Positions 16,806 through 50,098 of a stretch of 64,000 bases of DNA are shown here, in pieces. Position 1 is the stretch's first letter. Each line of letters starts with the position of its first letter. Both the position numbers and the translations under genes were made by a program. Source of the stretch: Pseudofrankia inefficax (GTDB lineage: Bacteria; Actinomycetota; Actinomycetes; Frankiales; Frankiaceae); contig NC_014666.1 in assembly GCF_000166135.1 (NCBI RefSeq), forward strand, positions 7,006,001 through 7,070,000, in the 5' to 3' direction. The notes under the pieces were generated by a model, which was given only the letters and a program-made list of their open reading frames with translations, was not told the origin of the DNA and searched no databases.

Positions 16806-17117
16806 ATGAGCACGCGACGGCTGATCGACTTTGAGGTGACCTCGGACGAGGGGGCCGAGCGGGTCAACGAGGCGCTGGTCGGCGTCTTCGAGGCCCTGGC
16901 GGGACAACGACCGGACGGGGTCCGCCTCGCGTACTGGCGCGTGACGGGCGGCCGGCGCTTCCACGCCCTGATCGAGCTGGTCGACGAGGGTCCGAACCCC
17001 CTGATGGACATACCTGCCTCCCGGGCCCTCCCCGGCCTCATCGGCTCGTGCGTCGACGGCGGATATCCCCGTCCCGTGACCGTCGAGCTGGTCGGCAGCT
17101 ACGGATTCGATGTCTGA
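16806..17117 (+). CDS. Small protein upstream of a sigma factor, unknown function
   Basis: A 103-residue soluble protein with GGGAG seven bases before its ATG. The alternating pattern (RLIDFEVTSDEGAERVNEAL, GVRLAYWRVTGGRRFHALIEL, GYPRPVTVELVGSYGF) suggests a small alpha/beta barrel like monooxygenase-type ABM domains, but I cannot assign it. It overlaps the sigma-factor gene by eight bases, so the two are co-translated, and it may act with that regulator. Confidence 0.72.
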   Translation: MSTRRLIDFEVTSDEGAERVNEALVGVFEALAGQRPDGVRLAYWRVTGGRRFHALIELVDEGPNPLMDIPASRALPGLIGSCVDGGYPRPVTVELVGSYGFDV

Positions 17118-35215: not shown

Positions 35216-36169
35216 TCAGTCGAGTGCGCCGCGAGCGACGGCGGCGCCGTAACGGCGGGCGCCGCTCGAGTAGACGGAGCAGATGCCGGCGGGCACGACG
35301 GGGTGCGGGCAGAAGTGCACGCCGTCGGGGGCGCGGACGATGATCTGGCCGTCCGGCCCGCACGGCTCCCCCGGGTCGCACGGCAGGGACGGGACGAACC
35401 GGCCGGCGGCGGTCACCGCGAGATCGGCCCGCACCACCCGGGTGTTCGGCGTCTCGCGCGCGATCGTGGCCCACAGCCGGCCGAGCGCGGTGCGCCCCGA
35501 GGCGTCGACCGTGTCGACCTTGCGCGCCGGTTCCTCGACCAGCCGGACCTGGACGCCCGCGGACACCAGTTGGTCGACCATCGTGGTCACGTCCTGGCGG
35601 TAACCGGTGAGCAGGTCGCGTCCGGCCATGCATGCCGGCAGGTTGCCGGAGAACGCGATCACGGCGACCGTCGGCCGGAAGTCGCGGATCTGGCCCGGCA
35701 CGTCGTTGACCCAGTCGCAGGGGGCGGTGCCGCTCCAGGCGCGCAGCTCGATCGCGTGCGCACCCGCGTCCAGCGCCGCCTGCCTGAAGGGCTCCTGCGA
35801 CTCGACGATCAGCGAGTCCCCGTACACGAGCAGCCGCGGGTCCGCCGGCAGGTAGCCGCGCAGCACGATCGCGGATCCGAGCACCGCGACGATCACCGCC
35901 AGGATCGCGACGGCCCGGCGCGACCACCTCGGCTGGCCCGGCTGGCGGGCCCGACGCCCCGACAGCCCGCCCAGCAGCGCGAGCAGGTCGATCCCGGTCC
36001 AGCCCTGGTGCGTCGAGGGGCGGGTGCCGGCCGGCCCGGCCTGGACCGGCCTGGCGCCGCGGCCGGGATCGCCGGGCTCCTCGGGGCCGTCCGGGAGATC
36101 CCGGCCGGCGTGGTCGACAGCCAGCGGCCGGTCGGAGCGAGGCGATCGCTCGTACTGCGCGGCGGGCAT
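35216..36169 (-). CDS. Membrane-anchored SGNH/GDSL hydrolase
   Basis: About 317 residues: a polar cytoplasmic stretch (~85 residues), one membrane helix (AVAILAVIVAVLGSAIVL) and an outside SGNH domain. Block I is LLVYGDSLIVESQ, block III AFSGNLPAC and block V APDGVHFCP (Asp and His). Cysteines near positions ACM, CDPGEPC and FCP may pair outside. The fold resembles the SGNH domains attached to acyltransferase-3 proteins, which move acyl groups on surface glycans. A long purine-rich hairpin GGGAGG-TT-CCTCCC precedes it, and a GTGATCAC palindrome lies further upstream. Confidence 0.85.
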   Translation of the reverse strand: MPAAQYERSPRSDRPLAVDHAGRDLPDGPEEPGDPGRGARPVQAGPAGTRPSTHQGWTGIDLLALLGGLSGRRARQPGQPRWSRRAVAILAVIVAVLGSAIVLRGYLPADPRLLVYGDSLIVESQEPFRQAALDAGAHAIELRAWSGTAPCDWVNDVPGQIRDFRPTVAVIAFSGNLPACMAGRDLLTGYRQDVTTMVDQLVSAGVQVRLVEEPARKVDTVDASGRTALGRLWATIARETPNTRVVRADLAVTAAGRFVPSLPCDPGEPCGPDGQIIVRAPDGVHFCPHPVVPAGICSVYSSGARRYGAAVARGALD

Positions 36170-36285
36170 GGCGCTCCTCGTACCGAAAGGGGGAGGTTCC
36201 TCCCTTATAAACGCAGCCGCCGTGCAATCGGTTGAAACCGGTACGTGTCCTCTTGATGCTACTTCGCCGCGCGAAGAGGGCTCAG

Positions 36286-36324: not shown

Positions 36325-37776
36325 TCAGCCGGTCGTCTCGAAGTAGAGAGCCTCGGCGAGCTCGCGGGCCGCCCGGGCATAACGGACGACGAGCCGCGAC
36401 GGGCTCGCCTCCAGCTCGCGCCAACGCCGCACCCACGCGCCGGCCGCCTCGGCGATCTGCGCGGGCGTGGCGCCGTCCGGCAGCCCGAGGCGAGCGGCCG
36501 TCGTCGTCCCGGTGGCGAACGCGACCAGCGCGGTCGCGGTGGCGTCGTCGACGCGAAGCCGGCCGGCCGCGAGCTCGCGCAGGGCGCCGGCGAGCTCCGC
36601 CTGCCGCAGCACGGGGTCGCGGCGGAGCCGGTCGATCTCCGAGCGCAGGCCGGCGAGCACGAGCCGGGCGTCGGCGTCGTCGCCGAGCCAGCTGGCCGTC
36701 TCCAGGTCCCCGAGCGCGCGGGTCGCCCGCAGCCGGTCGGCACCCACGATGAAGCGGCGCTCGACCTGCGCCCGCAGCTCGACGATGCCGGAACGCTCCT
36801 CAAGCGCGGCGAGCAGCCGGGGCGTCCCCGCGATGCCCTCGGCGAGGAGCGTGGCGCAGGTCCGCAGTCCGTACGTGCCGAGCAGCCGCAGCAGCCGGAC
36901 CCGGTCGTCGGCCCGCAGCGGGCCGGTGTCCCAGTCGAGGAAGTCCGCGTGCGAGTACAGCGCGTCGTCCAGATCGTCGGCGTCCGCGGCGGCGAGCTGG
37001 TGCAGCAGCCGGGTGTCCGCCTCGGTGAACTCGTCGCCGCCCGCGGTCTGCGCGAGCAGGCCGATCACCGGCACGACGTCGCCAACCAGGCCGCGCAGGT
37101 CGGCGGCATACCGCCCGGCGACCCGCCGGGCCTGCTCCCACACGTCGTCACGACCGTCGCCGAGCTGGTCGACCCTGCTGAGCACGCCGAGGACGTTGGC
37201 GGCGGTGAGGTTCGCGCCGAGGGCCGTGCCACGCAGGCCCTCGATCGCCTCGGCGTCGCGCTCCCCCGGGTGCGGGGTGACGTAGAGGAGCGCGTCCGCG
37301 TCCGCGAGGGCGGCGAGGGAGCCCTCGTCGAGGCCGGTCAGCGAGTCCAGGCCCGGGGTGTCGATCAGGATGTGCCGGGCGGCGAGGGCCTGGTTGGCGA
37401 CCTCGACCGTCACCGTGCGGATCTGCTCGCGGGGCAGTCTCAGGTCGGCGGGAGCTCCGCCGCCCCGGGCCGGCGGCAGCATGAACGGCTCCCCGGCGTG
37501 CGGGGTCACCACGATCCGGTTCTGGTGGTGGTGACGAAACCAGGTGACGACCATCGTGCACTCGGTCGCGTCGGTCGCCGCGAGCCGCTGGCCCAGCAGC
37601 GCGTTGACCAGCGTCGACTTTCCCGCGTTGACCCGGCCACCGACCGCGAGCCGCAGCGTGCGTTCCCGCAGCCGCTCGGCGACCGCCGTCACCGCGTCCC
37701 GCGCCGGGCCCGGCGCGAGCCGCTCCGCCGCCTCCGCGCACAGGACGAGGGTCTGGTCGCACAACGGCGTTCGCAT
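36325..37776 (-). CDS. Dynamin-like GTPase, second of the cluster (IniC-like)
   Basis: The 483-residue protein has G1 GGRVNAGKST (residues 46-55), a G2 threonine in ATECTMV, G3 DTPGLDSL and a G4-type VLSRVDQLGD, followed by a long helical stalk and no clear membrane helix. Bacterial dynamin-like proteins remodel or protect membranes and often work in pairs. The longer partner is at 39856. In mycobacteria IniA and IniC form such a pair. The ATG at 37776 with GAGGAACC upstream is preferred. The upstream open frame runs through an 18-base tandem repeat and is not coding. It follows the ECF sigma gene on the same strand. Confidence 0.85.
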   Translation of the reverse strand: MRTPLCDQTLVLCAEAAERLAPGPARDAVTAVAERLRERTLRLAVGGRVNAGKSTLVNALLGQRLAATDATECTMVVTWFRHHHQNRIVVTPHAGEPFMLPPARGGGAPADLRLPREQIRTVTVEVANQALAARHILIDTPGLDSLTGLDEGSLAALADADALLYVTPHPGERDAEAIEGLRGTALGANLTAANVLGVLSRVDQLGDGRDDVWEQARRVAGRYAADLRGLVGDVVPVIGLLAQTAGGDEFTEADTRLLHQLAAADADDLDDALYSHADFLDWDTGPLRADDRVRLLRLLGTYGLRTCATLLAEGIAGTPRLLAALEERSGIVELRAQVERRFIVGADRLRATRALGDLETASWLGDDADARLVLAGLRSEIDRLRRDPVLRQAELAGALRELAAGRLRVDDATATALVAFATGTTTAARLGLPDGATPAQIAEAAGAWVRRWRELEASPSRLVVRYARAARELAEALYFETTG

Positions 37777-37797
37777 CGGTTCCTCAGTGAAGCTCGC

Positions 37798-37851
37798 AGT
37801 AGCAGGGACGCTCGGAGTAGCAGGGACGCTAGGAGTAGCAGGGACGCTCGG
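37798..37851. repeat. Tandem repeat, three 18-base units
   Basis: Three copies of AGTAGCAGGGACGCTCGG (the middle one with a single change) lie between the end of the ECF sigma gene and the start of the second dynamin-like gene. A partial fourth copy follows. The array is a likely slippage-prone spacer; it may affect the leader of the GTPase gene. Confidence 0.85.
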
Positions 37852-37904
37852 AGTAGGCAGACGTGTGGAGCACGCCCCGGCCAGGGCGGCCCCGGCCGGG
37901 TCGG

Positions 37905-38519
37905 TCAGGCGACGAGCCGCGCGGCCACCGCCTGCCGGCCGCGGTGCAGCTGCGACTTGACCGTGTCCACCGGGATGCCGCGTTCCCGCGCGATCTCCAG
38001 GTAGCTCAGCCCACACACGTCGCGCAGCAGCAGGGTGGCCCGAAACGGCGCCGCCAGCGTGGCGACCGCGGCGTCGAAGGCGAGCCGGTCGGCGACGCGG
38101 TCGGCGAGCGCCGGTTCGGCCGCCACCGCCTCGACCGGAAGCTCGGCGACCGGCGCCGGGCGCCGCGAGCGGCGGCGGACCTCGTCAAGCGCCGCGTTCG
38201 TCGCCACGCGGTGCAGCCAGGTGGAGAGCCGCGACCTCCCCTCGAATCCCGGCAGGCTGGTCCAGGCCGCCACGAGCGCGTTCTGCAACGCGTCGTCGGC
38301 GTCCTGGTCGTCGCCGGTGATCCGCCGGCACACGGCCCACAGCTGGCGCTGGTACGGCCCGACGAGCCGGTCGAACGCGCTCCGGTCGCCTGCCGCCGCC
38401 CGCGCCACCAGAGCGTCGTCCGGCGGAGCCGACCGGGCGGACGCCTGATCAGCTCGCGGGACAGTGGAGGCCTCAAGGCCCCCGTCAAGGCAGTCGTCCG
38501 GCCCGCCTACGTGCGTCAT
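37905..38519 (-). CDS. ECF-type RNA polymerase sigma factor
   Basis: A 204-residue sigma factor. Region 2 is in DRSAFDRLVGPYQRQLWAV, ITGDDQDADDALQNALVAAW and FEGRSRLSTWLHRVATNAAL, a classical ECF pattern. Region 4 is in LAAPFRATLLLRDVCGLSYLEIARERGIPVDTVKSQLHRGR. The ATG at 38519 with GGGGGG upstream is preferred over the open frame starting at 38744. No anti-sigma gene is next to it. It lies inside the Hsp70/dynamin cluster, where three matching GGAAC/GGACC-CGTCC promoters occur, so it may read them; this is inference. Confidence 0.92.
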   Translation of the reverse strand: MTHVGGPDDCLDGGLEASTVPRADQASARSAPPDDALVARAAAGDRSAFDRLVGPYQRQLWAVCRRITGDDQDADDALQNALVAAWTSLPGFEGRSRLSTWLHRVATNAALDEVRRRSRRPAPVAELPVEAVAAEPALADRVADRLAFDAAVATLAAPFRATLLLRDVCGLSYLEIARERGIPVDTVKSQLHRGRQAVAARLVA

Positions 38520-38800
38520 GCGATCCCCCCCGGGAGGCCTGCCCCGACCGCTCCGACCGGCCGGGCGGAGCCGGAGCGTCAGCTCCGACCCCGCCACAAA
38601 CCTGTAGAAGCGGAGGCCTTGCTCGCATTGTGCACGAGACTTCCGGCGGAAACTCCTCCAGATCCGACTTTCCCGCGACATCTGCGCGTGCATTGCCGCG
38701 CCAGTGAGGAACGGCAGTGAACCGGCGAGATTGGCGCGAGCCAACGGGACCGGAACGGGCGGATGGGACCGGGAGCGGCGCCCGTGGACCAGGCGCCTTC

Positions 38801-39841
38801 TTAGATCGGGTCGGTCGCCGCCGAGATCTCGTTGTCGGTGGCGATTGACTGGTTGTACTGGGCGATGCTGGTCTCGACCGCCGTCTGGTTGGTGTCCGCC
38901 TGGATCAGCGGCGCGATCCGGGCCGCGCCCGCCGGGTTGTGCATGATCGCCTCATTCATGCGCAGCTGGTTCAGCACACTCGGAGAGATCGAGCCGGGGG
39001 CGATGCCGGAGTCGGCGAACGCCTGGTCTATGCCGTAGCCGCCGCCCGCCGCGGGATCCTGGCCGGTCTGGTGCACCGCGCCGTCGACGAGGCCCTGCGC
39101 GACGTGCATCTGCCCGTTGATCTGGTTCATCAGCGCGGCGGTGTCGCCACTGACCGGCAGGACCGACGGGTCCGGCAGGAAGCCGTCACCGAGGCCGCCG
39201 CCCGCGACCGGGTCGGCCGGGGGCAGGCCGGCGTCGATCTGGTGCTCAAGGGCAGCGACCTGGTGGCTGAGCAGGTCCGTCTGGTCCAGCATCGGCCCGA
39301 CGGGGCCGAGGTTTCCCATCGACGAGTAGCCGGCGGCCGTGTCGAAGGCCGGAGCGTAGCCGCCCGCCGGCGCGCCGGCGCCCACCGCGCTGCCGTAGCC
39401 GGACTGGTCGCCATAGCCGGACGGGTCGGTCTGCGCCGCGGTGTCCGGGCCGGCGGCGGAGCCCTGGTCGGCGGCGCCTGCGTCGGAGCCGGCGTCGGCG
39501 GTGCCGCCGACCAGCACCTGCGCCGATCCGTCGGCGGTGATTCCGGTGATGTAGTCGTCGCCCGAGGGGTCGTAGATGTGGACCGAGCCGTCCGCCCCGG
39601 TCGTCACCACGTCGTCGCCGGAATGGTCCAGGACGTGAATCTCGGCGTAGGTACCGGACGGGTCTGGGGTGCTGTACTCGTGGCCGCCGCCATACCCGGC
39701 AGGCGAGCCCCAGGAATCGCCTCCCCCGGAATGGTCGAGCGCCGTCGAGGAGTCATAGCCCTGATGGTCGTAGGCCGACGGGTCGTCGGCGTGATGGCCG
39801 GCGAGATCGCCGTAGCCGCCCTCGTGGCTGTGGACTTCCAT
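38801..39841 (-). CDS. Gly/Asp/Ser-rich protein of unknown function (IniB-like position)
   Basis: A 346-residue acidic, low-complexity protein with no signal peptide or membrane helix. The first third is rich in Gly, Tyr, Asp, Ser and His. It then carries short repeats of the type HVLDHSGDDVVTTGADGS / HIYDPSGDDYITGITADGS, and the C-terminal third (LNQLRMNEAIMHNPAGAARIAPLI) is helical. The gene starts 14 bases after the dynamin-like GTPase, with GGGGG at good spacing, so it is co-transcribed. IniB of mycobacteria is likewise Gly-rich and encoded beside dynamin-like proteins, but I see no clear sequence match. Confidence 0.78.
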   Translation of the reverse strand: MEVHSHEGGYGDLAGHHADDPSAYDHQGYDSSTALDHSGGGDSWGSPAGYGGGHEYSTPDPSGTYAEIHVLDHSGDDVVTTGADGSVHIYDPSGDDYITGITADGSAQVLVGGTADAGSDAGAADQGSAAGPDTAAQTDPSGYGDQSGYGSAVGAGAPAGGYAPAFDTAAGYSSMGNLGPVGPMLDQTDLLSHQVAALEHQIDAGLPPADPVAGGGLGDGFLPDPSVLPVSGDTAALMNQINGQMHVAQGLVDGAVHQTGQDPAAGGGYGIDQAFADSGIAPGSISPSVLNQLRMNEAIMHNPAGAARIAPLIQADTNQTAVETSIAQYNQSIATDNEISAATDPI

Positions 39842-39855
39842 TGCGGTTACCCCCG

Positions 39856-41820
39856 TTACTGCTCGCCGTCGAGCGCGGTCCGCAGAGCCCCGGTCTGCCG
39901 GCGAAGATTCTCGATCAGATTCAGGTTATTGGTGACGGCGGTGCGGCGCGGCGCGTTCTGCTCATCCGCGCGCCTAAGGGTCCGGTTGTGCTCGGCTATC
40001 TCCTCCTCCAGCTGGCTGATCGCGATCGTCAGTGCGTCGGTGACGTGGTCGCGCAGCGTCGCCATGGCCGAGCGCAACGACTGCTGCACCACCGGCGGCA
40101 GTTCCGTCCTCAGCCGGTCCGACACCGTCGAGACATAACGACGGGCGTCGGCGCGAGCCTTCATCGTCTCCTCGTTGCCGATCCGCCGGCGGCCGACGGC
40201 GAGAACGACGGCCACCCCGGCGACGACCGGGGCCACCGGCCCGAGCGCGAGCGACGCGCCGCTGAGCAGCGTGAAGGTCAGCGTGCCCAGGCCGACGCTC
40301 GGCACGATCCGGTCGAACGTCTCGCCGAGGCCGCGCCGCTCCGGGCCCGAGCGCGCGACCGTCGGCAACGTCCTGAGCCGGTCCGGCAGCGCGAGGCCGA
40401 GCGAGAGCTCCGGCATGCCCGCGGCCTCGAACCGCTGGCCCAGCTCGCCGGAGATCTCGGCGAGCCCCCGCTCGACGAGGTGCTGCATGGTCATCCAGAT
40501 GGCGCCCACCGAGCCGGCCAGGTCCCGGGGCAGCTGCGCCAGGTACTCGGTTCCCGCGGCGACGATCCGCTCGTCCGCCTCGGCCTGCAGATCGGCGATC
40601 AGCCTGCTCAGCTCGAGCCGGGCCGTGTTGTCCAGGCCCTGGAAGCGTTCGGCCAGGTGGGCCCGCCACCAGGCGGTCTCCTCGCGGGCCGCGGCCAGCC
40701 GGGTGCGCCGGTCGTTGATCTCGGCGAGCAGGGCCGGGTCGTGCGCGAGCGAGCGCAGCCGGGTGCGCTGCCCGGCCTCCAGCCGGTCCAGCACCTGACC
40801 GGTGGCGTGCAGGGTGTTGCGCATCCGGATCCGGTCGGCCCGGTCGGCGACCGTGTCGGTGAGCGCGGCCATCAGCGGGACGAACCCGCTGCGCTCGGTC
40901 AGCGTCGCGGCCCGGTCGGCCCGGCCGCGCTCGGCGAACCGGTCCGCGTCGATCTTGAAGCGGCTGCTCACCGGGAACCACGGCGCGTCGGCGAGCGCCG
41001 GCGCGTGGTCGCGGATCAGCTCCTGGTTGCGGGCGAGCACGTTCCGCCAGTCCGGGTACTTGTCGATCTGGGCGAGCACGAACAGCACCTCGCTGGTCCG
41101 CTCGCGCAGCTGGCGCAGGAAGCCGTGCTCGGACGCGGTCAGCTCGCTCTGGCCGCTGACCACGAACAGCAGCGCGTCCGCGGCGCTGGCGGCGGCGGCC
41201 GCGGCCCGGGCGTGGCCGGCCACCAGGCCGCCGACCCCTGGCGTGTCCACCAGCCGAAGCCCGTGGCGCAGCAGCGGGTCGGGCAGCCCGATGTCGACGT
41301 GCAGCACGTTGTCCCTGGTCGCCAGGCCCGCCCGCGCCGGATCGTTCGAGCGGGCCGGATCGACGGCCGCGTACTCGGCGAGATCGGCGAGGTCGATCGG
41401 GACGACCTCCGTGCGTACCGCGGGCGCCTCCCCCGGGCCGCCCGCGGCTCCTGCCGACGACGGGGAACCGGCGGCTCCCACCGGCACGGCCACCGTCGCG
41501 CGGGCGATGTCCTGCTCCGCGTAGCCGACCGTCAGGTGGACGTTCGTCGCCACGTCGACGTCCACCGGCAGCAGGCCCTCCCGGCCGAGCAGCGCGTTGA
41601 GCAGCGAGCTCTTGCCGCGCTTCTTCTCGCCCACGACGACGACCGTGGCCGCGCCGGCCCGCAGCCGCTGCGTCGACAGGGTCAGCAGGCTCGCCCCGCT
41701 CTGCTCCCCGACCGACACCGCGATGGCCGCGGTGTCGGTCGCGGCCCGTGCCACCCGGGCGGTGAGCAGGCTCCCGTCGACCGGGGCGGCGCCGGCAGCG
41801 GGCGGGCTCGGAGCGGTCAC
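39856..41820 (-). CDS. Dynamin-like GTPase, first of the cluster (IniA-like)
   Basis: A 654-residue large GTPase. G1 is GEKKRGKSS (64-72), G2 threonine in ATNVHLTV, G3 DTPGVGGL (192-199) and G4 LAQIDKYPD (251-257). Long helices follow, then a hydrophobic stretch (GLGTLTFTLLSGASLALG and APVVAGVAVVLAVG) that fits a membrane-inserting hairpin as in other bacterial dynamin-like proteins. Its last part (REEI-type coiled coil, ISQLEEEIAEHNRTLRRADEQ) may form the tip of the stalk. The GTG shares one base with the TAG of the upstream GrpE-like gene, so expression is coupled to that membrane protein. Confidence 0.87.
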   Translation of the reverse strand: MTAPSPPAAGAAPVDGSLLTARVARAATDTAAIAVSVGEQSGASLLTLSTQRLRAGAATVVVVGEKKRGKSSLLNALLGREGLLPVDVDVATNVHLTVGYAEQDIARATVAVPVGAAGSPSSAGAAGGPGEAPAVRTEVVPIDLADLAEYAAVDPARSNDPARAGLATRDNVLHVDIGLPDPLLRHGLRLVDTPGVGGLVAGHARAAAAAASAADALLFVVSGQSELTASEHGFLRQLRERTSEVLFVLAQIDKYPDWRNVLARNQELIRDHAPALADAPWFPVSSRFKIDADRFAERGRADRAATLTERSGFVPLMAALTDTVADRADRIRMRNTLHATGQVLDRLEAGQRTRLRSLAHDPALLAEINDRRTRLAAAREETAWWRAHLAERFQGLDNTARLELSRLIADLQAEADERIVAAGTEYLAQLPRDLAGSVGAIWMTMQHLVERGLAEISGELGQRFEAAGMPELSLGLALPDRLRTLPTVARSGPERRGLGETFDRIVPSVGLGTLTFTLLSGASLALGPVAPVVAGVAVVLAVGRRRIGNEETMKARADARRYVSTVSDRLRTELPPVVQQSLRSAMATLRDHVTDALTIAISQLEEEIAEHNRTLRRADEQNAPRRTAVTNNLNLIENLRRQTGALRTALDGEQ

Positions 41821-42887
41821 TATCGCGGCACCTGGTCGGCTCGGAAGACGACGACCGCCGGACGGCGCAGCACCTTGCCATGGTCGGTGAACCCGGTGAA
41901 CTCGGTGCTCGCGACGGTCATGTGCCGCCCTGGGTCGGTCGTCGGCTCGCTGCCGGTGGCCTCCTGCAGGTTGGGGTCGAACGGGTCGCCCTCGTTCGGG
42001 GCGACGACCTCGACGCCGACGTCGGCCAGCTCGGCGTTCAGCCGCCGCCACAGGCCGCGGTCGGTGTCCTGCAGCCGGTCGGAGACGTCGATGCAGGCGC
42101 GGACCAGCCGGTCACGCTCCTGCGCGGCCCGGGCCACCGCCGGGTCGACGCGGGTCGGGGCCCCGGTCGCCGGCGCGCGGCCACCGACCGGCGCCATCGG
42201 GCGGGTCTGTGCCCAGGCCGCCTCCCCGCCGGCACCGGCGATCTCCCGGTAGTCGACGTCCGACCAGCCGGACTGGCCGGACTGGCCGGCCGGAACCCGC
42301 CCGGCGGCCGGCGCGGGTACGTCGTCGTGCCTCCCGCCGCCGACGAGCCGGGCCACTCCGTAGCCGCCGGCCGCGCCGAGCACCAGCCCGAGCAGGATCC
42401 ACAGCCCGGTGTGGCCGCCGCCCTTGCCCTTGTCGCCCGGATTGACCACCGCGGGCGAGCTTGTCTCCGCCGGTGGCGTCGTGGTCGCGGGGGGCGTCGT
42501 GGTCGCCGGTGGCTTCGTGGTCGCCGGGGGCTTCGTGGTCGGCGGGGGCGTCGTCGTCGCCGCGTCGTTCCGCGAGTCGGTCCCGGTCCCGGTCCCGCCA
42601 GCGGAGCCCTGCTGGCCGCCCCCGGTGAGAACGCTGGTCGTTTCCGGGCCTTGCACGACCACGCCGGGTCCGCCAGCCGGCGTGGTAGGTGCAGGCGTGT
42701 CGGCGGCAGCCGGGCCGGCGAACGCGGCCAGGCCGAGCGTCGCGAGCAGCAGCGCGCCAGCGGTTCCCACGCCGACCCGCACCCACCGCGACCGGCCGAC
42801 GGCGCCGGCTCGGGCCGCCGTCCGGTTCACGGTCGCGGCTGCCCCGGTCTCGGCTCTGGTCTGGGTCGACTGGCGGTGGTTGGGCAT
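41820..42887 (-). CDS. Membrane-anchored GrpE-like nucleotide exchange factor
   Basis: A 355-residue protein with a signal-like N-terminus (basic residues, hydrophobic 38-57, AxA-type site near 62), a Thr/Pro-rich outside stretch (about 64-150), a membrane helix (161-184, GLWILLGLVLGAAGGYGVARL) and a cytoplasmic tail. The tail (about 252-347) fits the GrpE C-terminal half: a helix (ERDRLVRACIDVSDRLQD ... LNAELADVGVEVVAP), then DPFDPNLQEA and FTDHGKVLRRPAVVVF, as GrpE reads FDP..HEA and GY..G.VLRPA. GrpE proteins release ADP from Hsp70. Two Hsp70 ATPases are encoded directly upstream. An ECF-type promoter is present at 42933. Confidence 0.78.
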   Translation of the reverse strand: MPNHRQSTQTRAETGAAATVNRTAARAGAVGRSRWVRVGVGTAGALLLATLGLAAFAGPAAADTPAPTTPAGGPGVVVQGPETTSVLTGGGQQGSAGGTGTGTDSRNDAATTTPPPTTKPPATTKPPATTTPPATTTPPAETSSPAVVNPGDKGKGGGHTGLWILLGLVLGAAGGYGVARLVGGGRHDDVPAPAAGRVPAGQSGQSGWSDVDYREIAGAGGEAAWAQTRPMAPVGGRAPATGAPTRVDPAVARAAQERDRLVRACIDVSDRLQDTDRGLWRRLNAELADVGVEVVAPNEGDPFDPNLQEATGSEPTTDPGRHMTVASTEFTGFTDHGKVLRRPAVVVFRADQVPR

Positions 42888-42932
42888 CGCTCCCCCTGCG
42901 CGAGGCTGCCGCCGGATCCGACGGCACGGATT

Positions 42933-42960
42933 GGACGGCGTGACCGGGCCCAGATGTTCC
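42933..42960 (-). promoter_or_regulatory. ECF-type promoter P3, upstream of the GrpE-like gene
   Basis: Read on the minus strand: GGAAC (42960-42956), 18 bases, then CGTCC (42937-42933) within CGTCCAATCC. The -10 part is nearly the same as in the two other promoters of this cluster. The start codon is 46 bases downstream. Confidence 0.6.
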
Positions 42961-43047
42961 GCCCGCGTGGAAACAGTTCGCGAGATCTCGGACCGGCCGG
43001 GGGTCGAACGTGAGCGCTGGGCCGGTGGCTCGGCCACCGGCCGACGG

Positions 43048-44907
43048 TCAGCAGCCACCGATCACGCAGCCGTGGTCGTACCAGAACTCGTAGGCGCTGG
43101 ACGGCGTGCCCTCGTACAGACCGACGTTGAGCGTCGAGTCCGTGGTCCACATGAACGAGTAACTGCTCGACAGGTTGTAACAGAACACGACGCCGACCCG
43201 GCTGCCGCTGACCGTCCAGGTGCTGAAATGGTCCCCGCCGGAGCCACAGGAGCCCTGGGTGAGGCCCTGACCCGCGCTCTCCAGGTAGGCGTTCTTGTCG
43301 CTGGTCGAATCGAACTGCGCGAAATAGACCGGATGGCCGTTGTCCCGGCTGGAACAGCTGATGGAGGCGACCGGCGCCGGCGAACCCGTGAACTCGGGGA
43401 GGTTCTCGCAGTCGTCCTTGTCGATCCCGCTGTCACCGAGGCTGTCGTAGAGATCCCAGGCCTCCGAGGGCAGGTTGTCGCGCGGGTCGGGGGTCGTGGG
43501 CTCCGGCTCCGGCGAGTACTCGGTGGTGACCTCTTCTATGGGCGTCTCGACGTCGTGCGTGCTGATGACCGGGTCGGGCGTGACGACCGCGTCGCTGGTC
43601 ACCGGTGGGTTCGGCGCCGGAGACACCGAACCGCCGCCCGCGACGTCGCCGCCGCCGTGGTGGCGGCTCAGCACGATCGAGGGGATGAGCACGGCCGCGA
43701 GCACCCCGACCACGGCCGCGCCGATGAGCGTCTGCCGACGGCTGCGCCGAGGGGCCGGCGGGAGGGGCGGAACGGGCGGAACGGGCGGTGGCGGCGGAGG
43801 GGGCGGCGGTACCACCGGCCCGGCCGCGGCGGGGAGGTGCGGGATCGCGGCGCCGAGGACGACGACGGTCTTCGGGTCGGCGGTCGCCACGGGTGGCCGC
43901 CCCAGCGCCTCCGTGAGCAGCTCGCTGACCAGCGGGACACCGCTCGATCCGCCGGTCAGGTACACGGCCGCGAGGTCGCCGGGCGCCTGGCCCGTGCCCT
44001 CGACCGTGGCGACCAGCTCGGCGACGGTGGCGCGCAGCCTGTCGTTGATCGCCGCCTCGAATTCGGGCCTGGTCAGCCGGATCCCGTCCTCGAGACCCGG
44101 CGGGTAGATCGTCGTGTGCGGGAAGCGGGACAGTGCCTCCTTGGCCGTGGTGATGTCAGAACGCAGCAGGTCCTGGCGACGGCGGGCGTCGCGAGACTCG
44201 CCGCTCCACAGGGCGTCCCAGGCGGCCCGGTCCTGATCGCCGGCGTCCCGCACGTGCCCGGCGACGATCTCCCGTAGCGCCTCGTCGAGGTCCTCGCCGC
44301 CGAGGTTCGGGTCACCGCCGGGACGGCCCTGCACGGTGAATCCGTCCGCGGTGCGGGTCAGGACGGCCGTGTCGAACGTGCCGCCGCCGAAGTCGTAGAC
44401 GGCGACGTACGCGCCGACCGGGACGTCGTGCTGGTGGGCGTGCCAGACCGCCGCGGCGACCGGCTCGGGCACGAAGCTCGGCTCGGACAGCCCCGCCTTG
44501 CTCGCGGCCAGCCGCAGCCGGTCGAGCTCCGCCTCCCCCCAGCGGGCCGGGTGGGTGAGCACCACCCGCGCCGGCTCGTCGCCGCCGGCCAGCCGCCGCG
44601 CCTCGTCCCGGACCCGGCGCAGCAACGCCGCGACAAGATCCGCCGTGTCGACGGTCGTCTCTCCGAGCCGCGTCTGGGTGGCGTTGACGAGCGCCCTTTT
44701 CGGCAGCCGTTCCGCCCGCTCCGGAAACGCGCCACGCAACGACGTCGCCGCCCGGCCCGTGATGAGCACACCGCTCTCGTCGAGCACGACCAGCGAAGGC
44801 AGATATCGGCTCTGCTCGACCTCCACAAGGGTCGCCTCACCGCCGTCGACGGTGATCGCCGCCGTCGTGAAGCTCGTCCCGACGTCTATCGCAAGCGTCC
44901 AGCCCAT
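43048..44907 (-). CDS. Transmembrane Hsp70-family ATPase
   Basis: The 619-residue protein starts with an Hsp70/DnaK-type actin-fold ATPase (about 1-370). It has phosphate-1 AIDVGTSFTTAAI, phosphate-2 AVYDFGGGTFDTAVL and adenosine YLTGGSSGVPLV motifs. The usual peptide-binding domain is missing. In its place come a poly-Pro stretch, a membrane helix (about 402-424, AAVVGVLAAVLIPSIVL) and an outside domain rich in Ser, Asp and Thr with about six cysteines, ending in CVIGGC. It would couple an outside sensor domain to ATP hydrolysis inside. GGGGGG precedes the ATG. The next gene encodes a GrpE-like factor. A promoter at 44941 lies upstream. Confidence 0.88.
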   Translation of the reverse strand: MGWTLAIDVGTSFTTAAITVDGGEATLVEVEQSRYLPSLVVLDESGVLITGRAATSLRGAFPERAERLPKRALVNATQTRLGETTVDTADLVAALLRRVRDEARRLAGGDEPARVVLTHPARWGEAELDRLRLAASKAGLSEPSFVPEPVAAAVWHAHQHDVPVGAYVAVYDFGGGTFDTAVLTRTADGFTVQGRPGGDPNLGGEDLDEALREIVAGHVRDAGDQDRAAWDALWSGESRDARRRQDLLRSDITTAKEALSRFPHTTIYPPGLEDGIRLTRPEFEAAINDRLRATVAELVATVEGTGQAPGDLAAVYLTGGSSGVPLVSELLTEALGRPPVATADPKTVVVLGAAIPHLPAAAGPVVPPPPPPPPPVPPVPPLPPAPRRSRRQTLIGAAVVGVLAAVLIPSIVLSRHHGGGDVAGGGSVSPAPNPPVTSDAVVTPDPVISTHDVETPIEEVTTEYSPEPEPTTPDPRDNLPSEAWDLYDSLGDSGIDKDDCENLPEFTGSPAPVASISCSSRDNGHPVYFAQFDSTSDKNAYLESAGQGLTQGSCGSGGDHFSTWTVSGSRVGVVFCYNLSSSYSFMWTTDSTLNVGLYEGTPSSAYEFWYDHGCVIGGC

Positions 44908-44940
44908 CTATCCCCCCGGAAACAGATCTCGACCAGGATT

Positions 44941-44967
44941 GGACGTTGACGGGCGCCGAAAGGGTCC
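44941..44967 (-). promoter_or_regulatory. ECF-type promoter P2, upstream of the transmembrane Hsp70
   Basis: Minus strand: GGACC (44967-44963), 17 bases beginning CTTTCGGC, then CGTCC (44945-44941) followed by AATCC. It shares the -35, the CTTTCGGC-like start of the spacer, the spacing and the -10 with P1 at 47819. Confidence 0.65.
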
Positions 44968-45008
44968 CCGCCAACCGGCCTCGCCGCGCGGGAGCCGCGG
45001 CGGTTCTG

Positions 45009-47525
45009 TCAGCGGTTGCCGGTCTCGGCGTCCAGCGTGAGCAGGGTGCCGGCGGACGTGCCCACGGCGACGAGGGCCGACGCGCCGAGGCCAGGCAAAC
45101 CCGTGATCACGATCGGCGAGGCGTCCGACAGGCCGCCGAGCTTCGCCGTCCAGCGGCTGGTGCCCGTCGCGGCGTCCAGCCCGTGCAGCCGGCCCCGGGC
45201 ACCCGTGATCACCACCAGGCCGGCGGCGAGGGCCGCGTTCGCGTGGTCACCGCCGATGTGCCGGGTCCAGCGGACGGAACCGTCCCGGGTGTCCACCGCG
45301 GTCAGCATCCCGCCCTGGCTGGTGAGATACGCGATCCCCTCCGGGTCGACGGCGGGCGCGGTATAGACGCCGCCGCTCAGCGGGCGACGCCACCGTGCCT
45401 GCCCGGTCGCCGCGTCGATCCCGTGCAGCACGTGGGCGTGACTTCCGACGACGACCAGGTCCGCCTGCCCCGTCGAGGCGGTGAGGACCGCTGGGGCCGA
45501 CCAGATCGCCCCACCGGCGTCGTACTGCCAGCGCAGGTCACCCTCGTCTGTCCCGACGGCATAGAGCAGACCGTTGCCGCAGCCGACGTAGAGCGTGTCG
45601 CCGACGACAGCCGGTGCGGCGGCGACCCAGCCACCGGCGGGCTGGATCCACCGGACCGCTCCGGTCTCCGCGTCCAGGGCGTACACCCTGCCGTCCCAGC
45701 CGCCGGCGAACAGGAGGCCGCCGGACAGCGCCGGCGCGGCGTCCACGCCGCTTGCCCCGTGGAACACCCAGCGCGGCTGGCCCGTCGCCGCGTCCAGGGC
45801 CAGGAGCTGGTTCGGTCGGCCGCCGCAGTAGACGACGCCGTCCGCGACGACCGGCGACGAACCGCCGTTGCCGAGGCCCAGGGCCCAGGGCTGGTGACCA
45901 GTCGCCAGGTCGACCGCGTGCAGCCTCCCGGCCACGCCGGTCACGAACAGCGTCGGCCTGCCACCAGGACCCACCCCGACGGCGGGTGACCCCGCGCCCA
46001 GCCGGCTGATCTTCGTCTTCCAGAGACCGGGCTGGGACGCCAGCGTCGGCCCAGTGCTGGCGGTTGCCGCGTACTGCCGCGGCCCGGCCGGAGCCGCCGG
46101 GGGAAGGCCGCCCCAGCCGGTTCCAGGCGGTGGCGTGCCCGGCGCCGGGCCAGCGGCCGCAGACGTGACCGCCGCCGGTACTCCCGGCCATCCCGGCGGA
46201 ACCGGATCGGCCCAGGCGTGGGCACCGGTCCGCCGGGGGCCACCGCGGAACAGCGCCGCCGAGCCCGGAGCGGCGGCGCCCGGTACCCGGGACCCGTCGC
46301 CTGCCCGAGCGGTGACGGACGGCTGGCCGACCGGCGGCTGACCAACGGCCGGCGGCCCGACGGGCGGGCGACTGACCAGCGGCGGGGGACCAGCCGGGCG
46401 GCCGACGGGCGTCTGGCCTACCGGCGGGCGGCTGACCAGCGGTGGCGCGGCGGTCGGGCCGGCCGCGATCAGGGCGCCGAGAGCGGTGACGGTCTTCGGA
46501 TCGCCGGTGGCGCGCGGGAGCTGGCCGGTGCGGGCGCTGACCAGCTCGCTGACCCGGGGCATCCGGGTGGCGTTGCCGGTGAGGCAGATCGCGGACAGCT
46601 GTTCCGGGGCCAGCCCGGCGGAGGCGATCGTGGCGACCAGCTCGTCGATGCTGGCGTCGAGCCGGCCGCCGACGGCGTCCTCCAGCTCCCGGCGCGTGAC
46701 CCGGATGCCGTCGTCGAAGCCCATCAGATAGAGGGTGTGCGTCGCGGAGCGGGACAGCGACTCCTTGGCCAGGACGAGGTCCTGGCGGGTGAGCGCGCGG
46801 GTGCGGTTGCCGGCCCGTGACGTGTCCGACCAGAGCCGGTCCCAGCGGGCCTGGTCGAGATCGGCCGCATGCCCGCCGACCACCTCCAGCATCGCCTCGT
46901 CGACGTCCTCCCCGCCGAAGTGCCCGTCCCCGCCCGGGCGGCCCACCACGGTGAAGCCACCACCGACCCGCCGGAGCACCGCCGTGTCCAGCGTGCCGCC
47001 CCCGAGGTCGTAGATGGCGACGTGCCCGCCGTCGGGGATGTCCTCGCTGGCCGCGTACCAGCTGGCCGCCGCCACCGGCTCCGACACGAACACCGGAGTC
47101 GGCAGCCCCGCCTTCTCCGCGGCCAGCCGCAGCTTGTCCAGGTCGGCCGCCGTCCAGCGGGCCGGGTGGGTCAGCACCGCTCGCGACGGCGGCGTCCCGT
47201 CCGACCTCCGCCTCGCCTCCGCGGCCACCCGCCGCAGCACCGCCGCGACGACGTCGACGGTCCCGACCGTCTCCTCGCCGAGCAGGATCGCCTCCGCGGT
47301 GACCAGCGCTCGCTTCGGCAGCCGCTCCAGCCGCTCCGGAAACGCCCCGCCCTGGCTGACGGCCGTCTTCCCTGTCGTCAGTTGCCCGTCCGGGTCCAGC
47401 CACACGGCGGACGGCAGATACCTGCTGTTGTCGATCTCCAGCACCTCGGCGGCCCCGCCACCGACCTGCCAGGCCGCGCAGGTGAAACTCGTCCCGAAGT
47501 CGACCGCCAAGGACCAGCCCGTCAT
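45009..47525 (-). CDS. Hsp70 ATPase fused to a PQQ-type beta-propeller
   Basis: An 838-residue fusion. The N-terminal Hsp70 ATPase (about 1-365) has AVDFGTSFTCAAW, AIYDLGGGTLDTAVL and CLTGNATRMPRV. A Pro/Val/Gly-rich linker of ~150 residues follows with repeated RPPVG/QPPVG units. The C-terminal ~320 residues form about seven repeats of the PQQ-like propeller type (LLALDAATGQPRW, VYALDAETGAVRW, LHGIDAATGQARW, LTAVDTRDGSVRW, LHGLDAATGTSRW). No peptide-binding domain, signal peptide or membrane helix is present. The propeller may replace it as protein- or ligand-binding part. Its ATG overlaps the stop of the short Hsp70 fragment gene (ATGA). Confidence 0.9.
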   Translation of the reverse strand: MTGWSLAVDFGTSFTCAAWQVGGGAAEVLEIDNSRYLPSAVWLDPDGQLTTGKTAVSQGGAFPERLERLPKRALVTAEAILLGEETVGTVDVVAAVLRRVAAEARRRSDGTPPSRAVLTHPARWTAADLDKLRLAAEKAGLPTPVFVSEPVAAASWYAASEDIPDGGHVAIYDLGGGTLDTAVLRRVGGGFTVVGRPGGDGHFGGEDVDEAMLEVVGGHAADLDQARWDRLWSDTSRAGNRTRALTRQDLVLAKESLSRSATHTLYLMGFDDGIRVTRRELEDAVGGRLDASIDELVATIASAGLAPEQLSAICLTGNATRMPRVSELVSARTGQLPRATGDPKTVTALGALIAAGPTAAPPLVSRPPVGQTPVGRPAGPPPLVSRPPVGPPAVGQPPVGQPSVTARAGDGSRVPGAAAPGSAALFRGGPRRTGAHAWADPVPPGWPGVPAAVTSAAAGPAPGTPPPGTGWGGLPPAAPAGPRQYAATASTGPTLASQPGLWKTKISRLGAGSPAVGVGPGGRPTLFVTGVAGRLHAVDLATGHQPWALGLGNGGSSPVVADGVVYCGGRPNQLLALDAATGQPRWVFHGASGVDAAPALSGGLLFAGGWDGRVYALDAETGAVRWIQPAGGWVAAAPAVVGDTLYVGCGNGLLYAVGTDEGDLRWQYDAGGAIWSAPAVLTASTGQADLVVVGSHAHVLHGIDAATGQARWRRPLSGGVYTAPAVDPEGIAYLTSQGGMLTAVDTRDGSVRWTRHIGGDHANAALAAGLVVITGARGRLHGLDAATGTSRWTAKLGGLSDASPIVITGLPGLGASALVAVGTSAGTLLTLDAETGNR

Positions 47526-47734
47526 CGCCGCCCACTTTCCCCGGTGCCTGACGGCGTCGCGGGGCTTCTCGTGTTGGCGACAGTCCGCCGCAGCTCAATC
47601 AGTGCGGGAATCAGATCGGAGTAATAGTCCGAGGCGATCAGCGTGATTCCTGCCTGCGCGAGGATGTCGTGCCCGCCGCTGGCAGCGGTGGTGAAGCTCG
47701 TGCCGACATCGATCGCCAACACCCAGCCAGCCAT
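47522..47734 (-). CDS. Short Hsp70-like fragment, first gene of the cluster
   Basis: A 70-codon frame begins MAGWVLAIDVGTSFTTAAS, the phosphate-1 start of the cluster's Hsp70 proteins. It then leaves the family with GGHDILAQAGITLIASDYY and ends after a polar tail. The promoter P1, a GGGGGG site and the ATGA overlap with the next gene are kept, so it is probably translated and may help start the operon. It can be the remnant of an Hsp70 gene with an internal deletion, or a small leader protein. Codon use is less GC-biased in the second half than in the neighbours. Confidence 0.6.
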   Translation of the reverse strand: MAGWVLAIDVGTSFTTAASGGHDILAQAGITLIASDYYSDLIPALIELRRTVANTRSPATPSGTGESGRR

Positions 47735-47818
47735 ATTCCCGTTCCCCCCGGAGCAGTGATGGCGTCCATGTCTCGGAATCCAGGCACGAGCTGGGCGCCT
47801 GACCCCTCGACGAAGGTT

Positions 47819-47845
47819 GGACGCCGCCGCCGGCCGAAAAGGTCC
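47819..47845 (-). promoter_or_regulatory. ECF-type promoter P1 of the Hsp70/dynamin cluster
   Basis: Minus strand: GGACC (47845-47841), 17 bases beginning TTTTCGGC, then CGTCC (47823-47819) followed by AACC. Same elements and spacing as P2 at 44941. It lies 85 bases upstream of the first gene of the cluster. Confidence 0.65.
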
Positions 47846-47980: not shown

Positions 47981-50098
47981 TCAGGATCGGGCGGGGTCGT
48001 CGTCGCCCAGCTGGCGGGCGTAGAGGTGGGCGTAGGCGCCGTCGCGGGCGAGCAGGTCGTCGTGGGCGCCCGACTCGACGACCTGCCCGTCCGCCATCAC
48101 GTGGATCACGTCGGCGTCGACGATGGTGGACAGCCGGTGGGCGATCACGACGCGGGTCCGGCCGACCCCCAGGCGGGCGAGCGCCTCCTGCACGATCTGC
48201 TCGGTGACCGAGTCGAGCTGGGAGGTCGCCTCGTCGAGGACGAGCATCGGCGGGTCCGCCAACAGCACCCGGGCCAGTGCCACCCGCTGGCGTTCGCCAC
48301 CGGAGAGCTGGTAACCCCGCGCGCCGACGACCGTCTCGAGCCGTTTCGGCAGCTTCTCCAACAGCGAGCCGAGGCCGGCGTCGAGCGCGGCCGCCTCCAG
48401 CTCGGCGTCGGTGGCGTCGATCCGGCCGTACCGGATGTTCGCCGCGATCGTGTCGTGAAACATGTAGGGGTCCTGCGGGACGACGCCGACGATCGAGCGC
48501 AGCCGCCGCCAGTCCATCGTCGCGAGGTCCTCGCCGTCGCAGCGGATGTGGCCGCGGGTGGCGAGGTAGAGACCGGCGAGCAGGCCACCGAGCGTGCTCT
48601 TGCCGGCGCCGCTGGCCCCGACGATCGCGGTCTTCGCGCCGGCGGCGGCGACCAGGTTGAGGTCCCGCAGGGCCCACTCCTGCTCGACGGCCACGGCGGC
48701 GTCGGCCTTGGCCGCGGCGGCCAGCTCGGCCTCCTCGCGCCGGTTCTCGGCGGCCTCGGCGCCCTGGACGTCCCACCAGCGCCGGCCGAGCTCCCGGCCG
48801 GCCGCCGTCCAGTCGGATTTCGGGTCGCGTTCGTAGCGGAACCAGAGACCCTCGATCCGGATCTCGGGCGCCGACCGCCAGGCCCGCGCGTAGCCGACTC
48901 CGGCCTCGCCCCCCTGCGCGGGGACAAGCGGTCCACGCGCCGGTGTCGCCGCCGCGGCGGCCCGACCGACACCGACGACCGGCAGGTCACGCACGTCGGT
49001 GTCGACGTCGAGCAGCCCGAAGACCCGCTCGAAGGCGACCCCGGCGTCCAACAGGTCCGAGCGGCTCTCGGCCAGCCCGGTCACCGGCCGGTAGGCGTAG
49101 ACGAGCGCGCTCGCGAAGGCGAGCAGGGTGCCGATCGTGGCCCGGTCGGTGCTGACCAGCCAGGAGCCGAAGCCGACGACGATGACGACCGCGACCGCGG
49201 ACCCGGCCGACGACATGAGCTGGGCGCGGGCGTTGACCCGGTTGCGCCGCTGCGCGGTCCGGCGGATGCCGTCGGCGATCTCGGCGTACCGGCGTGACTC
49301 GTGCTCGGTGCGGTCGAACAGCCGGATGTGCAGCGCGCCGGAGACGCCGGTCGTGTCGCCGATCTGGGCGAAGTGCTTCACCCGCAGCTTGATCAGCTCG
49401 ATGGACAGGCTGCGGCCCTCCCGGCGCCCGACGGCCAGCAGCGCGAAGACCCCGGGCGCGAGTACTAGCGAGACGGCGGCGAGCCGCCAGTCGAGGACGG
49501 CGATGGTCGCGACGCCGACGACCGCGCTGATCGCGGTCGTCACCGCGCGCGGCAGCACCATCGCGACGGCGGTCTCGATCTCGTCGGCGTCCCGGCCGAA
49601 CAGGGTGAACAGCTCGCCCTGGCGCTGCCCCGGGAAGAACGCGAACGGCACCCGCAGCAGCTGGTCGTGCACCGCCTGGCCGGCACGCTGCCCGACCAGC
49701 TCGCCGAGCCCCGAGCTGAGCACCGACGAGACGGCGTTCGCGAGGGCCTGCAACAGCGCGACGACGAGCAGCGCCGCCACCGAGACGATCAGCGCGGAGT
49801 TCCCGTGCGGCGCCGTGAGGCCGGTGTCGATCAGATGGCGCAGGATGAACGGCGCGGCCGCGAAGGAGAGCGCGCCGGCGAGATCCATCGCGACGATCGC
49901 GACGAGCCTGGGCCCCGCGTCGTCGAAGAACCGCACGCTGCGCCGCGCGGTCGTGCTGCCCGTGAGCCGCCCCAGCAGCCAGGCCGTCGCCCGCGGGACC
50001 AACGGCACCCGCCGCCCGGCCGTGGCCCCCGGCGAGACCGTTGACATCCCTGTCGGGTCCGACACCCCAGCCCGCGACCCCTTGAACTCGTCCGCCAC
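47981..50098 (-). CDS. ABC exporter, fused membrane and ATPase domains, with an insertion in the ATPase
   Basis: About 705 residues: six membrane helices (DLAGALSFAAAPFILRHLI onward) followed by the ATPase. Walker A is VGASGAGKST, Q-loop VVPQDPYMF, signature YQLSGGERQRVALAR, Walker B MLVLDEATSQLD and the H-loop VIAHRLS. Between the A-loop (GLWFRYERD) and the strand before Walker A (WALRDLNLV) lies an extra ~55-residue charged, Ala/Glu-rich helix that most exporters lack. Half-size exporters of this type act as dimers on lipids, peptides or drugs. The GTG at 50098 has a purine-rich site; an ATG at 50047 is a real alternative. No partner half-transporter is next to it. Confidence 0.9.
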   Translation of the reverse strand: MADEFKGSRAGVSDPTGMSTVSPGATAGRRVPLVPRATAWLLGRLTGSTTARRSVRFFDDAGPRLVAIVAMDLAGALSFAAAPFILRHLIDTGLTAPHGNSALIVSVAALLVVALLQALANAVSSVLSSGLGELVGQRAGQAVHDQLLRVPFAFFPGQRQGELFTLFGRDADEIETAVAMVLPRAVTTAISAVVGVATIAVLDWRLAAVSLVLAPGVFALLAVGRREGRSLSIELIKLRVKHFAQIGDTTGVSGALHIRLFDRTEHESRRYAEIADGIRRTAQRRNRVNARAQLMSSAGSAVAVVIVVGFGSWLVSTDRATIGTLLAFASALVYAYRPVTGLAESRSDLLDAGVAFERVFGLLDVDTDVRDLPVVGVGRAAAAATPARGPLVPAQGGEAGVGYARAWRSAPEIRIEGLWFRYERDPKSDWTAAGRELGRRWWDVQGAEAAENRREEAELAAAAKADAAVAVEQEWALRDLNLVAAAGAKTAIVGASGAGKSTLGGLLAGLYLATRGHIRCDGEDLATMDWRRLRSIVGVVPQDPYMFHDTIAANIRYGRIDATDAELEAAALDAGLGSLLEKLPKRLETVVGARGYQLSGGERQRVALARVLLADPPMLVLDEATSQLDSVTEQIVQEALARLGVGRTRVVIAHRLSTIVDADVIHVMADGQVVESGAHDDLLARDGAYAHLYARQLGDDDPARS

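Follow-up and report, generated by a model that had tools for sequence, protein, structure and literature searches.

The operon of the dynamin-like GTPases IniA and IniC is induced by tuberculosis wall drugs, and we know of nothing on how the activity of bacterial dynamins, these two included, is controlled. The gene cluster described here lies in a 64,000-nucleotide stretch of the soil actinobacterium Pseudofrankia inefficax (the window; NC_014666.1, positions 7,006,001 to 7,070,000 of the forward strand), whose genome (G000) is one contig of 8,815,781 bases. It joins two dynamin-like GTPases, DynA and DynC, with Hsp70 ATPases, a membrane GrpE and an extracytoplasmic function (ECF) sigma factor. 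When dynamin-pair loci of the class were surveyed, an Hsp70 unlike the genome's own DnaK (divergent Hsp70) was found within 8.5 kb at 53 of 65 loci and a GrpE-like protein at 15 of 65, while no Hsp70, GrpE or DynC match was found in any of 40 control stretches. An Hsp70 partner linked to most sampled actinobacterial dynamin-pair loci is a concrete candidate controller of bacterial dynamins. We propose, at a probability slightly below one half (about 0.48), that the cluster works as a receptor and effector module for membrane stress, in which the state of Hsp70 controls dynamin-driven membrane repair or fission.

One of the closest described systems is mycobacterial iniBAC, which responds to wall drugs and, in M. 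smegmatis, has a dnaK-like gene next to iniR (Boot et al. 2017, PMC5760070, in the portion cited here). IniA binds, deforms and cuts membranes in vitro, and the authors of that work proposed IniC as its helper (PMC6715688, likewise the portion cited). The window cluster shares with iniBAC an adjacent dynamin-like GTPase pair, and the homology of DynA to IniA extends across residues 158-630. It differs in its adjoining ECF sigma factor, its membrane GrpE and its two Hsp70s with intact catalytic residues. Whereas iniB lies upstream of iniA, the gene for a Gly/Asp-rich protein lies downstream of dynA; no iniR-like gene was seen in the window gene list, no search aimed at IniR homology having been made. 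Eleos (LeoA, LeoBC) also has a dynamin-like GTPase pair, and the PADLOC LeoA and LeoBC models matched DynA (7.8e-22 and 3.4e-20) and, more weakly, DynC (1.1e-11 and 6e-5); to our knowledge Eleos has no Hsp70 or GrpE. The GTPases of the GAP1-N2 conflict systems are accompanied by Hsp70 and GrpE in about 14% of cases, with some Hsp70s lacking the peptide-binding domain and with predicted membrane association (Kaur et al. 2020, PMC7159879, in the portion cited). Their GTPase belongs to the DO-GTPase family, whereas those of the window are dynamins; no DO-GTPase, GAP1 or FNIII match was found in the cluster proteins with Pfam and NCBIfam, and the word dynamin is absent from the main text of that paper, the part considered here. 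Two loci, L040:7756-10131 and L055:8082-10357, resemble the theme of that paper: judged by eye, Hsp70 and GrpE there have GTPase and GAP1-like genes as neighbours.

With the DnaK-GrpE machine the cluster shares an Hsp70 ATPase with its catalytic residues and a predicted GrpE head fold. It differs from that machine in having no substrate-binding domain, in a GrpE whose dimerisation helix is mostly missing, and in predicted membrane segments in one Hsp70 and in GrpE. AfsK-type kinases likewise fuse a regulatory ATP-binding domain to a PQQ-type propeller, and the AfsK model matched the propeller part of the window fusion (4.8e-21); their ATP-binding domain is a protein kinase, whereas that of the window is an Hsp70. 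The parts are already known and the combination is new: no paper on wide Hsp70-dynamin linkage, a membrane GrpE or the two types described below was found in open-access PubMed Central.

The whole cluster is on the minus strand, with an ABC transporter (47981-50098) on one side and a DUF459 protein (35216-36169) on the other. In order of transcription its genes are:

47522..47734, minus strand: what deletions have left of a third Hsp70 with a multi-segment hydrophobic tail, 70 of 731 codons (compared with the intact L036 gene)
45009..47525, minus strand: Hsp70-PQQ, 838 amino acids, ATPase, Pro-rich linker and PQQ-type beta-propeller (HSP70 5.3e-27, PQQ_2 3.4e-40)
43048..44907, minus strand: Hsp70-TM, 619 amino acids, ATPase, Pro-rich linker, hydrophobic segment and Cys-containing C-terminal domain (HSP70 5.6e-30)
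41820..42887, minus strand: membrane GrpE, 355 amino acids (GrpE PF01025 1.7e-7, above gathering score)
39856..41820, minus strand: DynA, IniA-like bacterial dynamin-like GTPase, 654 amino acids (Dynamin_N 1.1e-15; IniA 6j72 1.8e-22)
38801..39841, minus strand: Gly/Asp-rich protein, 346 amino acids, beginning 14 bases past DynA (no family model)
37905..38519, minus strand: ECF sigma factor, 204 amino acids, alternative start at 38408 possible (Sigma70_r2 9.2e-20, r4_2 7.7e-13)
36325..37776, minus strand: DynC, partner (IniC-like) bacterial dynamin-like GTPase, 483 amino acids (Pfam Dynamin_N 2.8e-10)

All genes named in an earlier note on this DNA are thus present on the minus strand, and codon-position GC bias was strong in each except the short Hsp70 piece. 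The junctions it had listed were also correct: an ATGA overlap at 47522-47525 joins the short Hsp70 piece to Hsp70-PQQ, the GrpE stop codon and the DynA start share one base at 41820, and a gap of 14 bases (39842-39855) separates DynA from the Gly/Asp-rich gene. The overlaps suggest coupled translation. Neither the Gly/Asp-rich protein nor the short Hsp70 piece matched a Pfam or NCBIfam model at E 0.1.

For the linkage survey, a DynC profile was run against 393 genomes of the class; matches at E 1e-15 or better occurred in 68 genomes and 30 of 137 genera. The 65 dynamin-pair loci, the window included, came from 62 genomes and were taken with neighbourhoods of up to 20 kb, some clipped by contig ends (e.g. 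L112, L139, L141 and L156). Partial hits (in G027, G030, G043, G045, G056, G140 and G263:C167) were left out, and where a locus gave a second, weaker match, in most cases a DynA cross-match, this did not count as another locus. Canonical DnaK near some loci was not counted as divergent Hsp70. GrpE-like proteins were counted above 40 bits, which excludes L159 (23 bits), and ordinary GrpEs near canonical DnaK were excluded (L115, L117, L126, L133, L137 and L139). The controls were stretches of 19.5 kb from 20 of the genomes, at round coordinates chosen by hand. At least one linked Hsp70 was present in 22 of 26 genera, and with the best-sampled genus removed the linkage was found at 35 of 47 loci; in the genus grouping with the named Mycobacterium records it was found at all 18. 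Training of the Hsp70 profile used 22 sequences, some of them from L036-L049 and the named loci and none from L111-L160, and at the latter loci, outside the training set, a divergent Hsp70 was still present at 44 of 50. The gene set therefore recurs beyond the window, as the earlier note had required, and on the checks run here its reading of these genes as one system is supported.

Two types of locus were distinguished in a DynC tree of 90 proteins, built by a quick method with a midpoint root and with long branches flagged. All 18 loci with GrpE fell inside one 24-row set (support 97), which was defined as type II, the remaining 66 rows being type I. The order dynC-grpE-dynA was seen at nine loci (L037, L038, L049, L058, L071, L147, L151, L155 and L156), with other genes inserted at L071 and L147. 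Next to the Glycomyces set of this order, L058:14941-16206 encodes a protein with a J-domain-like start (by eye). The tree of Hsp70 ATPase domains, which omits L073, L121, L127, L143 and L144 (composite frames or odd domain bounds; the L079 Hsp70 was below the score limit), recovered a clade with 18 of the 21 type II rows (100/98) and a separate one with the 51 type I rows (100/96), and each clade included one Hsp70 from elsewhere in the window genome. The DynC and Hsp70 trees split largely alike, so the Hsp70s and dynamins have largely diversified together. Another window-genome Hsp70 outside any dynamin cluster (L244:8818-10695) groups with the propeller Hsp70 of the window.

The earlier note had described the Hsp70s as devoid of a peptide-binding domain, and this held. 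Hsp70-TM matched the HSP70 profile over 102-370 of 599 and the match of both window Hsp70s ended at 370-373, so no substrate-binding domain is seen in either; in all ten proteins scanned with Pfam the best HSP70 match ended at 368-381. The substrate-binding domain of the genome's own DnaK matched none of 77 dynamin-locus Hsp70s at E 0.01. Among the 79 Hsp70s extracted only those of L040 and L055, loci without dynamins, matched it, as did seven of nine canonical DnaK rows, the other two (L118 and L119) being clipped at the stretch end. Many type I Hsp70s have a hydrophobic segment and a Pro-rich tail in its place, and fused propellers were of PQQ type in the window and L037, WD40 in L037, PD40 in L059 and Vgb-like in L042. 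In Hsp70-TM the main hydropathy peak begins at residue 394 and a weaker one at 348, inside the ATPase domain; its C-terminal domain had no relative among the loci sampled, where only copies of the window itself were matched. About 13 Hsp70 genes and three GrpE matches were counted in the window genome, whose two ordinary GrpEs are close to two full-length DnaK genes.

Seven catalytic residues (D8, T11, K70, E171, D194, T199 and D201, DnaK numbering) are kept in both window Hsp70s. Across the type II Hsp70s, D8, K70, E171, D194, T199 and D201 are kept in 21 of 21 and T11 in 20 of 21. Beside mycobacterial-type dynamin pairs (L046, L065, L072, L113-L119, L122-L126 and L128-L132) Hsp70-like proteins were observed that lack most of these residues, typically with S for D8, V for K70 and G for T199. 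From their sequences they are likely pseudo-ATPases, and in most of them the ATPase domain is followed by a hydrophobic segment.

The membrane GrpE consists of an N-terminal hydrophobic segment, a Pro/Thr-rich stretch, a second hydrophobic segment and a C-terminal GrpE head (about residues 250-355), with hydropathy peaks beginning at residues 36 and 161. An AlphaFold2 model of the tail (mean predicted local distance difference test score, pLDDT, 83.6; at least 90 at 102 of 141 residues) has two helices of 27 and 13 residues and a beta-wing. When this model was compared with the PDB by Foldseek, the first 11 matches were all GrpE chains (E up to 1.7e-3), led by 1dkg, the GrpE-DnaK complex, and nine of the 11 come from entries also holding an Hsp70. 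A profile of 15 GrpE relatives matched solved PDB GrpE chains at 1.9e-10 at best. The C-terminal part is predicted to fold as a GrpE head (the end of the helix bundle plus the beta-wing), which answers the folding part of a check named beforehand in the earlier note. Its position in the cytosol is suggested by basic residues, judged by eye. Two hydrophobic segments were found in the GrpEs of the window, L058, L150, L152, L153 and L154 and in an uncalled frame of L070, and one in those of L036 (a short gene call) and L038; the GrpEs of L148 and L149 were called short and left out of this judgement. A full-length GrpE query against 58 relatives reached seven genomes only, probably owing to the low-complexity stretch, and the dynamins were used as anchors instead.

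Dynamin_N was above its gathering score in both DynA and DynC, with invariant GK and DTPG columns (the G1 and G3 motifs). The match of DynA to IniA (6j72) was obtained in a single-sequence search and agrees with the resemblance claimed in the earlier note. The DynC model shows a GTPase domain and a helical stalk (mean pLDDT 76.2), and Foldseek returned mitofusins, IniA, BDLP and LeoA with low template-modelling scores (TM-scores) of about 0.3-0.4. Judged by GTPase motifs and matches beyond the GTPase domain, DynA and DynC are bacterial dynamin-like proteins of the IniA/IniC type. The likeness to IniC proposed in the earlier note holds in the sense that DynC is a homologue of the partner GTPase found next to IniA-type genes at mycobacterial loci; the records compared carry no IniC label.

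Relatives of the window sigma factor, itself included, were found at 14 of 24 type II loci, one of 66 type I (L144, 3e-12) and none of the 40 controls. Further relatives are at L108 (8e-22, a record without a dynamin pair) and in a second ECF gene of the window (17080-18000). At L071, L151, L155 and L156, all type II, the upstream position is occupied not by the sigma factor but by a response-regulator gene and what is probably a sensor kinase (by eye). Between sigma factor and dynC, L148, L149, L150, L152, L153 and L154 encode a small acidic protein starting MILDRNNTE, possibly an anti-sigma factor. Among 20 loci searched with phmmer, the Gly/Asp-rich protein had a relative only in the sister genome G002, and it had no phmmer match among short genes near type I dynamins. 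An acidic companion was also considered as a shared feature: a composition filter, set after looking at the data, was passed at 20 of the 24 type II loci, at 30 of 39 loci that form a subset of type I, and at 7 of 40 controls. It was given no weight, since the window's own Gly/Asp-rich protein fails the filter; acidic, Asp-rich proteins occur at many other loci.

In the proposed module, Hsp70 ATPase domains without their substrate-binding half would serve as nucleotide-gated switches. Each would be wired to a sensor or scaffold, which may be an ectodomain on a membrane segment, a propeller of PQQ or WD40 type, or a membrane tail of several segments, and those facing the envelope would receive the signal as receptors. 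The membrane GrpE, its Pro/Thr-rich stalk probably toward the wall and its head in the cytosol, would bind the Hsp70s and reset them through ADP release. The state of Hsp70 may then govern assembly or disassembly of DynA and DynC on the inner face of the membrane, much as Hsc70 acts on clathrin coats, and damaged membrane would be deformed, cut or sealed by the two dynamins. Induction of the set may come from the linked ECF sigma factor.

Several observations weigh against this proposal. No divergent Hsp70 lay within 8.5 kb at 12 of the 65 loci: three of these have GrpE (L151, L155 and L156) and nine have neither, namely six from Frankiaceae (L039, L043, L044, L048, L050 and L051) together with L133, L136 and L159. 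The six Frankiaceae pairs are in another neighbourhood. From these 12 loci, the dynamins can probably work without Hsp70. About 25 of 58 other Hsp70 rows, mostly mycobacterial, have lost most catalytic residues, and a nucleotide switch is therefore not universal. In favour of the proposal, five catalytic residues were intact in 16 of 16 Hsp70s at GrpE loci versus 27 of 61 at loci without GrpE, as would be expected if an exchange factor were required only where the ATPase works, but this correlation is confounded by ancestry. The type II Hsp70s of L049, L146 and L147 are outside the type II clade, as is DnaK, and Hsp70-PQQ has just a weak hydropathy peak, inside the propeller. The GrpE head is without most of the long N-terminal dimerisation helix (the match covers positions 101-163 of 165 in the GrpE profile), and template-modelling scores against GrpE, by query length, were modest (0.44-0.53), so its exchange activity is putative. 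GrpEs of L037, L049, L071, L147, L151, L155 and L156 have no hydrophobic segment as called; the membrane anchor is recurrent and not universal. When the regions upstream of the clusters were scanned for promoter motifs of the ECF type, no convincing candidate emerged.

The strongest alternative, though an unlikely one in our estimate, is an anti-phage or biological-conflict system in which infection would be detected by the Hsp70s and propellers and answered by the dynamins at the membrane, as in Eleos or the GTPase-Hsp70-GrpE systems. It owes this rank to the LeoA and LeoBC matches, to cargo exchange at the chromosomal site and to the parallel with the Hsp70-GrpE conflict systems. Those matches may reflect general dynamin homology, and the PADLOC library shows no cut-off. 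At the site, the cluster is patchy, present in two of eight genomes of the genus. G001 is without it: window-like DNA ends at 47723 and restarts at 36274, with short Hsp70-gene pieces remaining between. In G006 the place is taken by a GmrSD_N protein together with one that has CBS domains (Pfam), in G007 by a similar pair (scanned with PADLOC alone), and the first protein of each pair gave PADLOC candidate-defence matches. The site appears to exchange cargo, and the interval between the ABC transporter and the DUF459 gene is possibly a cargo hotspot. Against defence stand the linkage at all 18 loci of the genus grouping with Mycobacterium, seen together with the response of iniBAC to wall drugs, and the absence of nuclease, protease and known toxin domains from Pfam and NCBIfam scans of the cluster proteins. 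The choice between an envelope module and phage defence cannot be made from gene content alone.

Less probable still is that the role of the Hsp70s and GrpE is confined to helping the dynamins and the Gly/Asp-rich protein to fold or assemble at the membrane, with no part in signalling. Both are chaperone parts, purified IniC was unstable (PMC6715688, in the portion cited), and the J-domain-like start next to the Glycomyces cluster would suit such a helper. None of the 77 dynamin-side Hsp70s, however, matched a substrate-binding domain, and a Pfam scan found no J-domain among the cluster proteins. Finally, that dynamins, Hsp70s and sigma factor are neighbours for historical reasons alone, as the ordinary flanking genes and the restriction of Gly/Asp-rich matches to G002 among 20 loci might suggest, is made very improbable by the linkage of 53/65 versus 0/40 and by DynC and Hsp70 trees that partition largely alike.

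If the membrane-stress module is correct, the gene set suggests a novel route by which bacteria could detect problems in their envelope and respond at the membrane. Slightly more tentatively, it may represent an unnamed and widespread actinobacterial class of receptors in which an Hsp70 ATPase replaces the kinase and is fused to ectodomains or propellers, a transmembrane GrpE resets it in one branch, and the output is a membrane-cutting dynamin pair instead of gene regulation. We know of no earlier transmembrane GrpE; it would be a new kind of exchange factor and could couple extracellular events to Hsp70 inside. The split between type I, without such a GrpE, and type II, with GrpE at 18 of 24 loci and the related sigma factor as counted above, gives clear predictions.

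The short Hsp70 of the earlier note exists as a fragment, but not as a functional mini-Hsp70. At the same place G002 (L036) has an intact 731-residue Hsp70 whose tail has about nine hydrophobic segments, and the 70 codons of the window piece correspond to its first 18 residues, a stretch of the tail and its last residues. These three pieces align to separated parts of the intact protein. Relative to G002, the fragment is a gene with two large internal deletions and not a working part; codon usage did not call it as a gene. The Hsp70-TM gene is absent from the G002 locus, where Hsp70-PQQ is 92% identical, and Hsp70-TM shares 71% identity with the multi-segment Hsp70 across the ATPase domain. 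On these sequence comparisons, the sensor Hsp70s turn over fast.

Some minor observations concern related loci and the surroundings. A GmrSD_N-type protein and a neighbour, with CBS domains in the L242 copy, occupy the cluster's site at L242:3408-6562 and L243:4659-8101. Frankiaceae dynamin pairs without Hsp70 also include the named records L075 and L080. Near the pair of L043, at least, is a gene resembling a phage-tail sheath protein by eye, and Frankiaceae pairs may sit beside contractile injection system genes. Close to the cluster in the window, on the plus strand, 53933-56389 encodes a protein that by eye resembles a Ser/Thr kinase and has a single membrane segment and, at its C-terminus, a region of SH3-like repeats.

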